DNA from: Bacteroidales bacterium | Lineage (GTDB): Bacteria > Bacteroidota > Bacteroidia > Bacteroidales > UBA12481 | Reading direction: 5' to 3' | Assembly (NCBI GenBank): GCA_021160155.1 | Contig: JAGHDB010000128.1 | Coordinates: 1 to 10,258, forward strand | Length of the DNA: 10,258 nucleotides | Shown here: in pieces, positions 121 through 10,239 of the stretch | Layout: each line of letters starts with the position of its first letter | Position numbering within the stretch: the first letter of the stretch is position 1 | Notes under the pieces: model-generated | What the model was told of the DNA's origin: nothing | Databases searched by the model: none | Seen by the model: only the letters and a program-made list of their open reading frames with translations | Program-made: the position numbers and the translations under genes

Positions 121-127
121 AAGGAGG
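121..127 (+). promoter_or_regulatory. Strong Shine-Dalgarno site of the first M14 gene
   Basis: AAGGAGG lies six bases before the ATG at 134, which is ideal spacing for a ribosome binding site. It fixes the start of the first M14 protein. The other genes in this window have no comparable purine-rich site: the second M14 gene is preceded by CCGTAATCAAC, clpB by CCTTATAT and the antiporter by ATTTCGGT. The first M14 gene may therefore be translated more efficiently, with the second translated by coupling across the 12-bp gap. That last point is inference. Confidence 0.75.
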
Positions 128-133
128 TTTGCA

Positions 134-2050
134 ATGAATTATTATTCAATTAAGTACAAGGTTCTGTTGTTTGTTATGGCCGGAATTCTGGTATCAGCAA
201 TTTCGGGTTGGCTTGCAAATGCATCTGCCCAGGAGGCACCCGGATACCGGAATTATTCTGCGTTGACAAAAGTATTAAAACAAATGGCCGATCAGCATTC
301 CGATCTGGCCAGGCTTAAGTCAATCGGTCAAACGGCAGAAGGGCGGGAGATTTGGTTACTCACTTTGGCTAACCAAAAAGGAACTCCGCCTGATCAGCGA
401 CCGGGTATTCTGGTGGCAGCTAATTTCGAAGGTGATCACCTGATAGGCAGTGAACTGACGCTTCGGGTGGCCGATTACCTGTTACGGTCTTATCCTGATA
501 ATGAAACAGTGAAACGGGATATGGACGATTATGTTTTTTACCTGATTCCCAGGATAAACCCGGATGGAGCGGAGAAAATGTTTCATGCTCCCGTTACCGG
601 AAGTAAAACCAACAATGATGCTTTTGACGGAGATCATGATGGTCGCCTGGATGAGGATGGTCCTGAAGATCTGAACGGGGACGGTTTCATTTCGGTTATG
701 CGCGTGAAAGACGTTCGCGGATTATACATGATCGATCCTGACCATCCTGAATTGATGAAAAAAGCCGATCCCTCAAAAGGAGAAGAGGGCCGGTATTCTC
801 TCTATTGGGAAGGGCTGGATAACGATCATGATGGATTTTACAATGAAGATCCCAGGGGAGGAACAGACCTCAACAGGAACTTTCAGCATGCTTATCCATA
901 TTATCAGGAAGATGCCGGAAAGAATATGGTCAGTGAACCGGAGTCGAGAGCGTTAATGGATTGGGTGGTTGCTAACCGGAATATTTCTATGATACTTACA
1001 TTCGGGGAGAGTGACAATCTGATTACTCCTCCAAACCCGAAAGGGCAGTTCAAGTCAGACCGCACCCTGGATCTGATCCGGTTTGCAGACGCTTCAAATG
1101 CCGAGGCTTCCAAAGTGGGTATGATCTCAACAGGCAGAAGAGGTTATGGCCGGTATGGCAGGTTTTTTATGATGGGATCATTTTCCGGGGGACAAAACCA
1201 ATCGTCAGGACGGAGCCGGAGGCCGGCACGTAAAGCGGCCACTACGGTGAATACTAAGGATTTGCCCTATTTCACCAAGATCAGTAAACAGTATAAAAAG
1301 TTGACCGGTATTACAACTCCACCGGTTATTCGTGAACCCGAAGGGGCATTTTTTCAATATGCTTATTTCCAATATGGAGTACCGGCATTTTGTACTCCGG
1401 GATGGGGACTGGTACTGCCGGCTGACAGCAGTCGCGGCAAACGGAGAGCATCTAATCCGATGATGATGAAAAAAATGCCGGCAAGAGGTCAAATACGGAG
1501 CAGTTCCCCGGACGGTGTCGATGCTCAATTCTTAAAATATCTTAAGGCAAAACAACCGGATGGATTTGTGGATTGGACGTCCTATATGCACCCTGATTTG
1601 GGAGAGGTGGAGATTGGAGGGTTTTCTCCAATGGTTATCGCCAATCCACCGGTTGCACAATTGGATAAACTGGGCGAAGCCCATGGTAAGTTTGTAGCCT
1701 GGTTGCCTACCCTAAATGCCAAAATCCATATAGCTGAATTTGAGGCTACCAACCCGGGGGGAGGCCTTTATCGTATTAAAGCAGAGATTGAAAATACGGG
1801 TTATCTGCCTACCTCTACTGCACACGGAGTGCTTGCAAGATCCGTGAAGCCCACGATGGTTCAACTCCAGGTGGATCCTGACCGGATTCTTTCAGGGAAC
1901 AGCAAGACTAATTTTTTCAGGGCTCTGGAAGGGTCCGGTGGCCGGCAGAAATACGAGTGGCTGATTCGCGGAAAGCGGGGCGACCGGATTGAACTGAAGG
2001 TGGTTTCTCAAAAGGCCGGATCAGATCATGCAATCCTAAAACTGAAATAA
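134..2050 (+). CDS. Secreted M14-fold peptidase homologue lacking catalytic residues (probable pseudoenzyme)
   Basis: A 638-residue protein with a Sec signal peptide (residues 1-32, hydrophobic core about 10-29, likely cleavage after ASA). The carboxypeptidase A fold is recognisable from INPDG (141-145), the substrate-binding pair in DLNRN (245-249) and a C-terminal beta-rich domain (about 525-638). It is a paralogue of the next gene, but the catalytic site is degraded. The HGNE zinc motif is EGDH (99-102), with His and Glu exchanged; the third zinc ligand His is Phe290; the catalytic Glu is Pro422, in an ungapped alignment starting at Gly404. Between NPDG and NRN lies an insertion with two acidic DxDxDG loops (165-175 and 229-239), probably calcium-binding. 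Two Arg/Gly/Ser-rich segments (334-368 and 431-457) are absent from the paralogue. Likely role: non-catalytic binding of peptide or cell-wall material, or a partner of the active paralogue. An altered metal site using E99, H102 and perhaps E292 or D294 is the alternative. Start set by the ribosome binding site at 121-127. Confidence 0.85.
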   Translation: MNYYSIKYKVLLFVMAGILVSAISGWLANASAQEAPGYRNYSALTKVLKQMADQHSDLARLKSIGQTAEGREIWLLTLANQKGTPPDQRPGILVAANFEGDHLIGSELTLRVADYLLRSYPDNETVKRDMDDYVFYLIPRINPDGAEKMFHAPVTGSKTNNDAFDGDHDGRLDEDGPEDLNGDGFISVMRVKDVRGLYMIDPDHPELMKKADPSKGEEGRYSLYWEGLDNDHDGFYNEDPRGGTDLNRNFQHAYPYYQEDAGKNMVSEPESRALMDWVVANRNISMILTFGESDNLITPPNPKGQFKSDRTLDLIRFADASNAEASKVGMISTGRRGYGRYGRFFMMGSFSGGQNQSSGRSRRPARKAATTVNTKDLPYFTKISKQYKKLTGITTPPVIREPEGAFFQYAYFQYGVPAFCTPGWGLVLPADSSRGKRRASNPMMMKKMPARGQIRSSSPDGVDAQFLKYLKAKQPDGFVDWTSYMHPDLGEVEIGGFSPMVIANPPVAQLDKLGEAHGKFVAWLPTLNAKIHIAEFEATNPGGGLYRIKAEIENTGYLPTSTAHGVLARSVKPTMVQLQVDPDRILSGNSKTNFFRALEGSGGRQKYEWLIRGKRGDRIELKVVSQKAGSDHAILKLK

Positions 2051-2062
2051 ACCGTAATCAAC

Positions 2063-3877
2063 ATGAAAACAATCAGCAAAAAAATAATGAAATCACTGAT
2101 GCAATTAGTCGCAGGTGCAGCATTTTCATGCATGATTATGGCTGCGCTGCCGGTATCAGCGCAAGGACAGGACAAATCTGCTTCTGACCCGCAGTTTAAA
2201 GTGAAGATCGATTTTGACCGCTGGCATGATGTGCCGGAGCTATATGCCGATATGAAACGGCTGCAAAAGGCCTATCCGAAATTTCTGACACTGCAGTCAA
2301 TAGGTAAAAGTGCGGAGGGAAGGGATATTATGGAGATGACTGTCAATAACCCTGAAACCGGTCCTGAACTGAGCAAAGCAGCCATGTATATTGATGCCAA
2401 CATCCATGGTAATGAAATTCAGGGTGGTGAAGTATGCCTTTATACTATTTGGTACCTGATGGAGAATTACGGTCGTTTGCCCGGAGTAACTAAATTGGTG
2501 GATGAACGTGTTTTTTATATACTCCCGACAGTCAACCCGGATGGGCATCAATACTTTATGGAAGGGCAGGGTGGTGGTGCCCGGAGCGGTCATGTACCTG
2601 TTGATGATGATAATGACGGATTGATTGATGAAGACGGACCGAATGATTTGAATGGAAACGGAGTGATCGAGCAAATTAGAAAATATGTTCCGGGTGAAGG
2701 TAATTACCAGGTAAATCCCTATGATCCCAGGATTATTGAACCGGTTCCGTTTGGTAAAAAAGGAGATTATATCCTTTTGGGATATGAAGGGATTGATGAT
2801 GATGGAGATGGTATGGTTAATGAGGATGGACCGGGTAGTTATGATCCCAACCGGAACTGGGGATCCGATTGGCAACCTGATTATATTCAGGGCGGTGCAA
2901 TGGATTATCCGTTTCAATTGCCCGAAGCACGCGCAGTCTCCGAGTTTATAATGGCTCATCCGAATATTGCCGGTGCACAGGCTTATCATAATGCCGGGGG
3001 AATGCTTCTGAGAGGTCCCGGTGCGGCATCGGGCGGTGAATACCCGGCATCGGATGTCCGCTTTTATGACGAATTGGGGAAAAACGGAGAACGTATATTG
3101 CCGTTTTACCGCTATATAGTGATCTGGAGCGGGCTCTATACGGTACATGGCGGTTTTCTCGACTGGACCAACGATGGACAGGGAATTCCAACCTTCTCCA
3201 ATGAACTGTGGAGTGGCAAGCAATATTATACCAGTCCTGAATTGCAGGCACAAACAAAAGATCCCAATAGCCCGATCTCAGGCGTAAAAGGTCGCTATTT
3301 CTTTAATGAACATCTTGAATTTGGTGATTTATATACCGAATGGAAAGAATTTGACCATCCACAGTATGGAAAAGTTGAAATCGGAGGATCCTGGAAAAAA
3401 ACTTATGGCCGTCTTCCTCCCCGGTTTATGAATGAAGAGCTCTGCCACCGGAATATGGCCTTTACCCTGTATCAGGCCGATGAAATGCCTAAAATGGAAA
3501 TTGGTGAGACCAAAGTGGTAAAGATTGATCCGAAAGTATACCGGGTATGGGTAGATCTGACTAATCCTAAAGTTGTGCCTACCATTACTGCCCGTGCGGC
3601 TCAGAATCACGTGGTTCGACCTGATCTGCTTCTTCTGGATGGTGATGTGAAAATTATTTCAGCCGGCTGGATCACCAGTAAGGAGACCTTTAATTACCGG
3701 CATGCCATTACGCAGGAAATTGATCAGAAGCAACTTAACCGTATCATGATCCGGAATGGTCATCCGGGTAAAACAACCCGGACTATTCAATACCTGGTAA
3801 AAGGTTCAGGCAAAATCACCGTTACCTATGACAGCGTTAAAGGTGGAAAAGTGAGTAAAACCCTGGTTTTACGGTAA
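2063..3877 (+). CDS. Secreted M14 family zinc carboxypeptidase
   Basis: A 604-residue exported metallopeptidase. The signal peptide is residues 1-33 (basic start, hydrophobic core about 11-30, probable cleavage after VSA). The M14 active site looks complete: zinc ligands H115 and E118 in HGNE, third ligand H309 in AYHNAGG, substrate-binding N263-R264 in DPNRNW, and catalytic E381 in the segment IPTFSNELW. NPDG is at 158-161. A roughly 100-residue insertion between NPDG and NRN carries two acidic loops (181-191 and 245-255) of DxDxDG type, expected by analogy to bind calcium. The sequence HPQYGKVEIGG (432-442) is followed by a beta-rich C-terminal domain to the end. M14 enzymes remove C-terminal residues from peptides or cleave cell-wall peptides; which applies here cannot be told. 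The gene begins 12 bp after its catalytically dead paralogue, so the two are almost certainly one transcript. It has no clear Shine-Dalgarno site, which fits translational coupling. It converges on clpB. Confidence 0.9.
   Translation: MKTISKKIMKSLMQLVAGAAFSCMIMAALPVSAQGQDKSASDPQFKVKIDFDRWHDVPELYADMKRLQKAYPKFLTLQSIGKSAEGRDIMEMTVNNPETGPELSKAAMYIDANIHGNEIQGGEVCLYTIWYLMENYGRLPGVTKLVDERVFYILPTVNPDGHQYFMEGQGGGARSGHVPVDDDNDGLIDEDGPNDLNGNGVIEQIRKYVPGEGNYQVNPYDPRIIEPVPFGKKGDYILLGYEGIDDDGDGMVNEDGPGSYDPNRNWGSDWQPDYIQGGAMDYPFQLPEARAVSEFIMAHPNIAGAQAYHNAGGMLLRGPGAASGGEYPASDVRFYDELGKNGERILPFYRYIVIWSGLYTVHGGFLDWTNDGQGIPTFSNELWSGKQYYTSPELQAQTKDPNSPISGVKGRYFFNEHLEFGDLYTEWKEFDHPQYGKVEIGGSWKKTYGRLPPRFMNEELCHRNMAFTLYQADEMPKMEIGETKVVKIDPKVYRVWVDLTNPKVVPTITARAAQNHVVRPDLLLLDGDVKIISAGWITSKETFNYRHAITQEIDQKQLNRIMIRNGHPGKTTRTIQYLVKGSGKITVTYDSVKGGKVSKTLVLR
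3855..3872. terminator. Inverted repeat in the 3' end of the second M14 gene; possible clpB terminator
   Basis: GTAAAACC (3855-3862) and GGTTTTAC (3865-3872) are perfect inverted arms separated by CT. In practice they would form a 7-bp stem with a 4-base loop. They sit inside the last codons of the M14 gene. Read on the - strand, downstream of the clpB stop, the hairpin is followed by TCACTTTTCC, a mildly T-rich tail. It could therefore end the clpB transcript. The stem is AT-rich and the tail imperfect, so this is a weak call. Confidence 0.3.
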
Positions 3878-8630: not shown

Positions 8631-9428
8631 TTACCGGTACATCTTATGATTAAGTGTTTTGTAAAGTGCCCAGTTGACAAAACCCGGGGCGATCCATTGA
8701 AAGAAGCTGAGTGCCTTACCCAATAGCGTTTGGGTGATTTTGAATTTTCGCCGCCGGATCAGTCGCATAACGGCACGACCTACATCCTCTTCGGTTTCAT
8801 GACCGCGGCGGTGGACTTCCATCAGGGAATTGTCATATTTAAGTACCTTTTTGCCGGGATAAGCTTTTACAAAACCCACACGTACCAATCCGAAATGAAC
8901 CCCGCTATGTCTCAATTCCGACTGAAGCGTCTGGGCAAGGGCTGTAAGTCCCATTTTCCCTACCGAGTAGGGTGCTGAATTAGGAATCCCCCGGATACCT
9001 CCTGACAGGCTGGAGATAAAAACCACACTGCCACGGGTCTGTTTGATAAATGGGAGAGCAGCCATAGTACAATAAACCGCACTCATCAGGTTGACATCAA
9101 TCACCTTTTTAAAGAATTCAGGAGTTAATTCTTCAAAAAAACCTCTCATGGGTAATCCGGCATTGTTGATAAGGTAATCCAACCGGTCAAAATGTGCGAC
9201 TGTCTGTTCAACCAGTTTCCGGCAAAATCCGGGATCAGTTACATCCCCCGGAATGGCCAGTGGCTGATAGCCCATGGATTGAAATTCAACTTGTGTGTTT
9301 CGCAATTGTTCCGGATTCCGCCCATTGATTACCACACGGGCTCCCTCCTCCATAAACATTCCGGCAATAGTTCTTCCGATTCCTCTGCTTGAACCGGTGA
9401 CAATCACAGTTTTATCCCTGAATTTCAT
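8631..9428 (-). CDS. Short-chain dehydrogenase/reductase (SDR), NAD(P)-dependent
   Basis: A 265-residue classical SDR with a Rossmann fold. The cofactor motif is TGSSRGIG (11-18), the structural motif NNAG (88-91), and the catalytic residues are Y154 and K158 in YSVGK, with Ser139/140 in FISS. Arg15 and the basic residue in NGRN (35-38) after the second strand suggest NADP(H) preference, which is inference. The tail (about 238-256) is hydrophobic and aromatic and might touch the membrane or form the substrate lid. The substrate is unknown. An in-frame ATG far upstream at 9656 would give 341 residues, but that extension overlaps the regulator gene and shows no SDR sequence; the chosen start stands ten residues before TGSSRGIG and follows a purine-rich AGAGAGAG. 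The gene lies between the GntR regulator and the antiporter, all on one strand, and is probably co-transcribed with the antiporter. Confidence 0.92.
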   Translation of the reverse strand: MKFRDKTVIVTGSSRGIGRTIAGMFMEEGARVVINGRNPEQLRNTQVEFQSMGYQPLAIPGDVTDPGFCRKLVEQTVAHFDRLDYLINNAGLPMRGFFEELTPEFFKKVIDVNLMSAVYCTMAALPFIKQTRGSVVFISSLSGGIRGIPNSAPYSVGKMGLTALAQTLQSELRHSGVHFGLVRVGFVKAYPGKKVLKYDNSLMEVHRRGHETEEDVGRAVMRLIRRRKFKITQTLLGKALSFFQWIAPGFVNWALYKTLNHKMYR

Positions 9429-9531: not shown

Positions 9532-10239
9532 TTAAAAGGTGCCGTAAATAGCGTCAATATCTGTGTTGCAGAACACGGAAGAATAAATATGGAAGCCCAT
9601 CCGGTTGGTGCTGAGTTTTCTTTCAAGATGCAGAATCGGGAATCCCGGTTGTACACCTAAATATCCGGCTGTTTTCGGGTCGGCGGCAATGGCCCGTATA
9701 CGTTGTTCCCCGCCCCTGATTTCAATACTGTAATACCGGCGCAGAATATCAAACAGAGAATTGTTTTCAAATTTATGTACGGTAAACCGGGGCATGTTGA
9801 TGTTGGGCAGATAGTTGATATCGTAAAAAATAGAATGTCCTTCAAGTTGACGTAATCTTTCAAGAAAAATACAACCTGTTTCCTGTTCTACCTCATCCAG
9901 CGGAAAGATAAAAGGTTCAGGCCAGGTTCTGACATCGGGTTTTGTTAATACAATGGTTCTTAATTCCTTGTTTCTCAAAGCAGCCGTGGTTCCGGCTACC
10001 GATAATATTCCGATTCCGGTTGGGCTGTTACTTACAATGCTGCCTTTGCCCTGACGGGTGATTATGTATCCATCATAGGCCAGGCTGATCAGCGCCTGGC
10101 GCACCGTCGGCCGGGTTAGTCCGTATGTTCGGCACAATTCGTTCTCAGAGGGTAATAAATCTCCCTTCCGGTAAACCTCCTCTTCAATATGCTTCCGGAG
10201 TATCTCATACAATTTTTTGTGCCTGGGTATTTTTTTCAT
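9532..10239 (-). CDS. GntR family (HutC subfamily) transcriptional regulator with UTRA domain
   Basis: A 235-residue one-component regulator. Residues about 5-72 are the GntR winged helix-turn-helix, recognisable from LPSENELCRTYGLTRPTVRQ (29-48) and the wing GYIITRQGKGSIV. Residues about 90-230 are the UTRA effector domain of the HutC subfamily (FLERLRQLEG near 125-134, HLERKLS near 204-210). Members usually repress their own gene and adjacent transport or catabolic genes, and are released by a small ligand, often a sugar phosphate or amino-acid derivative. The ligand here is not readable. The reductase and antiporter follow on the same strand and are the natural targets, but genes beyond the window edge could equally be. 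The start is the first ATG, and the DNA-binding domain fits it. A palindrome typical of HutC-type operators lies nine bases upstream. Confidence 0.93.
   Translation of the reverse strand: MKKIPRHKKLYEILRKHIEEEVYRKGDLLPSENELCRTYGLTRPTVRQALISLAYDGYIITRQGKGSIVSNSPTGIGILSVAGTTAALRNKELRTIVLTKPDVRTWPEPFIFPLDEVEQETGCIFLERLRQLEGHSIFYDINYLPNINMPRFTVHKFENNSLFDILRRYYSIEIRGGEQRIRAIAADPKTAGYLGVQPGFPILHLERKLSTNRMGFHIYSSVFCNTDIDAIYGTF

Follow-up and report, generated by a model that had tools for sequence, protein, structure and literature searches.

The stretch of DNA analysed here (the window) is an entire contig of 10,258 bp (C163; JAGHDB010000128.1) from a Bacteroidales genome of 2.38 Mb that is 82% complete and lies in 411 contigs. 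At its left end are two co-directional genes, here called A and B, which encode a pair of M14 peptidase homologues, the first apparently catalytically dead and the second intact; a scan of the contigs of this genome found one such locus. Both proteins match PF00246 (Peptidase_M14) well above its cut-off of 21.6 bits (A, 119.5 bits; B, 137.7 bits), and they align with each other at 26% identity over 559 columns (E 3e-42). No other Pfam family was matched by A or B at E ≤ 0.01, so neither carries an M16 domain, and at the same threshold neither matched NCBIfam, including the type IX C-terminal sorting domain. The N-terminus of A is hydrophobic and ends in ASA followed by Q33, a residue kept in 121 of 121 close A sequences, and both A and B are probably exported, as judged by eye from N-termini that look like signal peptides. 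The pair has the following features:

121..127, + strand: AAGGAGG ribosome-binding-site-like sequence before gene A (direct reading)
134..2050, + strand: gene A, probably exported M14 pseudopeptidase, 638 aa (open reading frame, Pfam, homology with B; signal peptide by eye)
428..439, + strand: zinc motif of A, E99-G-D-H102, ligands swapped relative to H115-G-N-E118 of B (alignments)
626..685, + strand: calcium-loop-like DxDxDG insert of A, residues 165-184 (D167, D169 and D179 invariant in 38 A proteins)
818..850, + strand: DxDxDG loop of A, residues 229-239 (pattern and conservation)
872..877, + strand: N247-R248 of A, equivalents of substrate-binding N144-R145 (alignments)
1004..1006, + strand: G291 of A, at the site of the third zinc ligand His196 (alignments)
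1121..1258, + strand: Gly/Arg-rich loop of A, residues 330-375, mostly of low model confidence (AlphaFold2 model)
1397..1399, + strand: P422 of A, at the site of catalytic Glu270 (alignments)
1415..1516, + strand: second loop of A, residues 428-461, Gly-rich clade-wide, mostly of low model confidence (AlphaFold2 model)
2051..2062, + strand: 12-bp spacer from the A stop to the B ATG, both genes in the same frame (direct reading)
2063..3877, + strand: gene B, probably exported M14 carboxypeptidase with intact catalytic residues, 604 aa
2405..2416, + strand: zinc ligands of B, H115-G-N-E118 (H115 and E118 invariant in 38 B proteins)
2603..2662, + strand: calcium-loop-like insert of B, residues 181-200 (pattern and conservation)
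2795..2827, + strand: DxDxDG loop of B, residues 245-255 (pattern and conservation)
2849..2854, + strand: substrate-binding pair of B, N263-R264 (alignments)
2987..2989, + strand: third zinc ligand of B, H309 (alignments)
3203..3205, + strand: catalytic Glu of B, E381 (alignments)

The original prediction described this locus as a dead M14 peptidase 12 bp upstream of an active one, and the spacing and the residues that it assigned to B were all borne out. In bovine carboxypeptidase A (CPA) numbering, as used in PMC11266112, the residues of B are H115 (H69), E118 (E72), N263 (N144), R264 (R145), H309 (H196) and E381 (E270), and the same six sites in A are occupied by E99, H102, N247, R248, G291 and P422. 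The prediction that A lacks the zinc ligands in their usual identity holds by sequence, but the HxxE motif has been swapped rather than erased, its His and Glu having exchanged places (HGNE to EGDH). Pro422 does align with the catalytic Glu. The proposal that Phe290 replaces the third His proved mistaken: Gly291 occupies that site in both alignments, and Phe290 pairs with Tyr308 of B. Survival of an ordinary zinc site through the HxxE swap was ruled out, as the third His and the catalytic Glu are also gone.

The loss is uniform among relatives. At E ≤ 1e-10, 1841 database proteins match A, of which the best 120 were listed and the remainder may include B-type proteins; together with 109 from the listing for a query of both genes fused into one chain, these gave 229 A-type proteins, and 120 B-type proteins were taken from the listed matches to B. 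Both A-type lists cover the closest matches to their queries. The 229 listed A-type proteins are without exception devoid of the four catalytic residues (229/229 with 0/4), and all four are present in 120/120 B-type proteins. Proteins taken from fetched loci gave the same result, with 0/4 residues in 47/47 A proteins and 4/4 in 50/50 B proteins, a count that excludes one locus with A in two frames (L084) and one that holds the same pair as L054 (L001). A lone A gene fetched later (L105, genome G251) also has 0/4. These alignments indicate that A is a catalytically dead M14 homologue, as had been claimed, and that the loss is not due to chance, while B, with full zinc ligands, the Asn-Arg pair and the catalytic Glu, looks like a working enzyme.

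The residues that replace the catalytic ones are themselves conserved in the clade of the window. Among the 229 listed A-type proteins, E99 is kept in 229, H102 in 212, R248 in 228, G291 in 215 and P422 in 225; in the 121 close A sequences (the window protein and 120 listed), E99 and T421 are present in 121, H102 in 119 and P422 in 118, with D294, N295 and L296 each in 121/121 and E292 in 113/121. Across the 47 more diverse locus proteins, E99 is kept in 30 and R248 (Arg145) in 21, with E, K, D or A at H69 and P, D, N, Y or R at E270, and the catalytic-Tyr column is gapped in 35. A new motif is thus fixed in the clade of the window and loose beyond it, since the replacing residues are constant inside the clade and vary outside. 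The predicted retention of Asn247-Arg248 for substrate binding therefore applies within the clade of the window, and the Arg is kept in fewer than half of the proteins from the wider loci. In the window's clade the pocket of A, with its Asn-Arg pair and fixed new residues, fits the holding of a substrate or ligand, and the freer pocket of other clades fits a mainly structural role; both roles could hold in different lineages.

One reading of this pocket is that A has acquired a new activity, with E99 and H102 joining E292 or D294 in a different metal site. The swapped ExxH of most listed close A proteins and the near-invariance of E292 and D294 are what such a site would need, but A has neither a general-base Glu nor a third His, most of its divergent members have a gap at the catalytic Tyr, and the would-be ligands vary among them, which makes a new activity very improbable.

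The neighborhood of the pair was surveyed in 395 Bacteroidota genomes sampled across the phylum. The bit cut-offs, 399 for B and 326 for A, were chosen by us after viewing the match lists, and absences are uncertain because only the best candidates were scored in each genome (3 in the phylum-wide searches, up to 8 in the class-wide search). Both genes were detected in 35 genomes, B only in 2, A only in 0 and neither in 358 (Fisher p 4e-48, a statistic that ignores relatedness). With the A profile, 36 matches scored at least 326 bits and were taken as A-type; they come from 35 genomes, every one of which also carries B, and in 34 of these the two genes are adjacent with A upstream. Querying with B only produced 50 hits at E ≤ 1e-60, and the 40 that scored at least 399 bits fall into 38 loci from 37 genomes. 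All 38 were fetched, and at 35, the window included, A lies immediately upstream in the same orientation. In one of these 35 (G175, locus L084) A spans two reading frames, and two B genes follow it. The exceptions were G251, discussed below, G194, where B starts at a contig edge and no A was detected, and G385, where there are two B-like genes and the third His of the first is replaced by Leu. Such a B-like gene with Leu at the third zinc His, next to an intact B (L080:508-2232), is possibly a second, independent dead partner.

Closer to the window, a search of 60 genomes (its own and 59 relatives) found A at E ≤ 1e-20 in 12, all from the window's own family, and in none of the 48 other genomes of the order. 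B adjoins A in 11 of the 12, and in the twelfth (G011) A runs off the contig end. Of 149 genomes of the window's class, which overlap the phylum sample, five contain a full A-type match, one of them being the window's genome. One more genome, G461, gave a partial match that agrees better with the B profile, with D, E, H and L at the four sites and a frame cut by the contig end; this partial M14 (L106:1-1659), nearer B by profile and with D and L at two catalytic sites, is perhaps another dead M14. The match in G431 (282 bits with the A profile) also fits the B profile better and has H, E, H and E intact.

When neighboring genes were clustered across 51 loci, the M14 genes were common to 50, and the next neighbor family occurred in at most 13; the missing locus, L055, does carry the pair. 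The A-B gap is between -4 and 15 bp in 38 of the 49 loci with both genes. Larger overlaps in 8/49 stem from the first-start-codon rule, each having an alternative start that would place the gap between -4 and 22 bp, and the remaining three gaps are 45, 86 and 1709 bp, the last with another B between. An accidental neighborhood was rejected on this conserved adjacency and co-occurrence. Listed A-type proteins are named from Bacteroidota, KSB1, Acidobacteriota and Aminicenantes. As a proxy for adjacency beyond Bacteroidota, longest-contig sizes were compared between 120 A and 119 of 120 B database rows; 26 were equal, with 0-2 when sizes were shifted, and one of the 26 is a KSB1 contig (P0087 and P0236). 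Taken from gene content and order, the evidence indicates that the pair is an old, co-inherited unit.

Five natural fusion proteins in the order A-B were found with the query that joined both genes as one chain: P0244 (1154 aa), P0256, P0294, P0301 and P0353, the last named Phycisphaeraceae. Profile scores favor A for the first half of each and B for the second, and by eye the catalytic motifs are lost in the A half and kept in the B half, which has no signal peptide. P0244 and the other fusions (three of those four being in the tree) separate for both halves, and their distance on the tree suggests at least two fusion events. A further candidate, P0242, was not counted, since by eye its A half and its B half each end in what reads as frame-shifted sequence. 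In P0243 a B domain is joined to an FtsX/MacB-type permease without A, an arrangement that could be genuine or could reflect faulty assembly.

Phylogenetic analysis placed A and B each in one clade, with support of 99 in a quick tree with outgroups and of 100/99 and 98/97 in a more careful tree, and with similar inner branching. Ten near-duplicate or odd loci were dropped from the quick tree (L001, L052, L053, L062, L067-L069, L084, L088 and L090), which included P0244 and three of the other four fusions but left out P0294; the careful tree, with 42 proteins, draws its A and B sequences from 14 loci and two fusions. An M14 tandem in which both genes keep H, E, H and E was found at five loci (L100-L104), one in the window's own genome (contig C359, L100:1006-4931) and the others in relatives. 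Its first genes group with A and its second genes with B, with support of 99/95 in the careful tree and of 87 and 85 in the quick tree, where long branches may mislead. This grouping implies that the pair probably predates the loss of catalysis in A, and the simplest reading of the trees is that one duplication gave an active-active tandem whose first gene became non-catalytic in the lineage leading to A.

A shared insert also marks this lineage. The strict DxDxDG pattern between the zinc and Asn-Arg motifs occurs in 42/44 A proteins, 46/46 B proteins, 8/8 proteins of the intact tandem and 3/3 of the single M14 clade described below, and in A its Asp residues belong to the small set of positions that never vary. 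The Leu-bearing B-like protein has the strict pattern as well. Among the other M14 proteins of the window's genome the strict pattern was found in 0/6, L002 having a looser match. Five (L092-L096) of the 10 weaker rows of the B query (205-226 bits) were fetched; they form a single M14 clade with the acidic insert, in which HxxE is kept, Asp stands at the third His and His replaces Asn144.

The ratio of nonsynonymous to synonymous substitution (dN/dS) was estimated by the Nei-Gojobori method in 49 comparisons. In the 11 with dS below 1 for A, dN/dS was 0.027-0.060 for A and 0.007-0.047 for B. Purifying selection thus acts on A in the lineages that allow the measurement; the window's own gene is too distant from its relatives for such an estimate. 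A proteins diverge faster than B proteins (mean distance 0.61 vs 0.49 over 47 loci), and the distances of the two correlate (r=0.95 over 47 loci). That A might be a decaying duplicate of B retained by chance, as its lost catalytic residues and the two reading frames of A in G175 could suggest, was rejected on these dN/dS values, which lie far below 1; the occurrence of A-type proteins in four named groups with one origin on the trees also counts against decay, and we give that reading almost no credence. Two of the outcomes that the original prediction named as refuting it, an unconserved neighborhood and neutral decay of the first gene, were thus checked, and both checks favored the prediction, the second in the lineages that could be measured. 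The proposal of a pseudoenzyme working with an active partner is well supported by conserved adjacency and purifying selection.

An AlphaFold2 model of the window pair, made from an alignment of 53 rows with no single B rows, has a predicted template modelling score (pTM) of 0.79 over 1200 residues, of which 151 are under 50 in predicted local distance difference test (pLDDT). An 83-row alignment was dropped because most of its single A rows landed on the B half. The A half of the 0.79 model has confident strands and helices, and a structure search listed the B half only; B agrees with M14 in fold as well as in profile. The Gly-rich loops of A in the window's clade (window 1121-1258 and 1415-1516) are probably disordered, and most divergent A proteins have short versions of them or none.

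That the pair recurs in distant bacteria and is sometimes joined in one chain makes the dead copy a probable partner of the live one. We think it probable, from these genomic patterns and one model, that A and B, encoded by a two-gene operon, make up a two-subunit metallocarboxypeptidase, secreted or periplasmic, in which A is the non-catalytic subunit. The genes would be co-transcribed, and B would be the zinc-dependent catalytic subunit that cleaves. A would be an old pseudopeptidase that has kept its M14 sequence family and calcium-loop-like inserts and lost its catalytic centre, and it would bind B as a structural or substrate-recognition subunit, like alpha-MPP with beta-MPP in mitochondrial processing peptidase (MPP) or MetCb with MetCa. 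More tentatively, the pocket of A (EGDH, NRN, FGESDNL and TPGW) might be a purpose-built non-catalytic one that holds or positions substrate for the active site of B; a two-site carboxypeptidase of this kind, derived from an active-active M14 pair of which one half turned from catalysis to recognition, and forming a counterpart of MPP across several phyla, is a possibility that we hold well below the two-subunit reading itself.

Several observations weigh against the two-subunit reading. A and B lie on different contigs in G251, and two genomes yielded B but no A, B lying at a contig edge in one of the two. A single genus supplies ten of the 11 usable dN/dS comparisons, the window gene is part of none, and mirrored A and B trees are expected from shared species history too. 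The chains of the 0.79 model were tethered by stop-codon read-through; a model of the natural fusion P0244, with a thinner alignment of 17 rows, reached a pTM of 0.50 with no confident arrangement. Given the difference between the two models, we infer A-B binding, and A assisting rather than inhibiting catalysis, from adjacency, co-occurrence, fusion and the one model.

The separate contigs of G251 and the unarranged P0244 model would also suit a stand-alone A that binds peptide C-termini or another ligand and is co-expressed with B without forming a stable complex, as would the remodelled pocket conserved in the window's clade (E99, R248 and P422 in nearly all listed proteins; D294, N295 and L296 in all close ones). 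Natural fusions, strict adjacency and the absence of A-only genomes from the sample speak against such independence, and divergent A proteins often lose E99 and R248 while the pairing with B stays, so that a stand-alone binder seems unlikely. Digestive M14 enzymes are under propeptide control. By analogy, A could be an inhibitor, decoy or propeptide-like chaperone that holds B inactive or folds it until exported, for which the position of A as the first gene and the short gap, which would permit translational coupling, can be cited. At some 530-720 aa, a complete enzyme fold is costly as an inhibitor, and a permanent cis fusion ill suits a removable one unless it is cleaved; we regard this role as improbable. 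Between the heterodimer and the inhibitor-like decoy of the original prediction, the natural fusions and the window-pair model favor the heterodimer, but the second model lends it no confident arrangement.

The next gene after B in the window is clpB, on the opposite strand. Farther along, an SDR open reading frame called mechanically overlaps a GntR regulator at 9532-9656, an overlap that a later start near 9425 would abolish.

The proteins of gene A's type form a large bacterial pseudopeptidase clade whose listed members carry PF00246 and are in some cases named M14 family metallopeptidase, despite lost catalytic residues in all 229 examined. If A and B form a heterodimer, the intact-intact tandem, dead-intact tandem and dead-intact fusion would be a natural series, and it would serve to test how a catalytic subunit changes into a recognition or regulatory one. 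Carboxypeptidase D has three domains, of which the third is dead, whereas the A-B fusions have two, of which the first is dead. It nonetheless resembles them in that a single polypeptide combines live and dead M14 domains (PMC11266112). Carboxypeptidase T (PDB 3PRT, 1OBR) is also named among the closest known systems. The M14 pseudopeptidases named in the available parts of a 2024 review are four vertebrate and one yeast, namely AEBP1, CPXM1, CPXM2, domain III of carboxypeptidase D, and yeast Ecm14, which like A are M14 homologues with catalytic residues lost (PMC11266112). H69 and E72 are retained in AEBP1, CPXM1, CPXM2 and Ecm14 (Table 2 of PMC11266112), several of the known pseudo domains are seemingly superfluous, and in those parts of the review most keep some zinc ligands and none is described as the operon partner of an active M14. 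The window pair differs from them in that all four catalytic residues are gone from A and an intact paralogue is adjacent. No bacterial M14 dead-live pair was found in searches of open-licence PMC papers aimed at M14 and at M16B.

Parallels also come from other families. MPP alpha/beta and its prokaryotic M16B homologues likewise combine a dead and an active homologous metallopeptidase, encoded in prokaryotes by a two-gene operon, and the related M16A and M16C enzymes include single-chain forms comparable to the A-B fusions, as the same parts of that review describe (PMC11266112). MPP differs in belonging to family M16, with an HxxEH motif, and in that its heterodimer is proven (PMC11266112), whereas that of A and B is a proposal. 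In the metformin hydrolase MetCaCb, too, the metal-bearing subunit requires a homologous pseudoenzyme subunit that is encoded together with it, but this enzyme is a heterohexamer of the ureohydrolase superfamily, with measured activity and a crystal structure (PMC11271267). Dead and live homologues that act as a pair are thus known, in MPP and MetCaCb, and as far as we have seen the M14 family, the breadth of the pair and its active-active ancestry are new.

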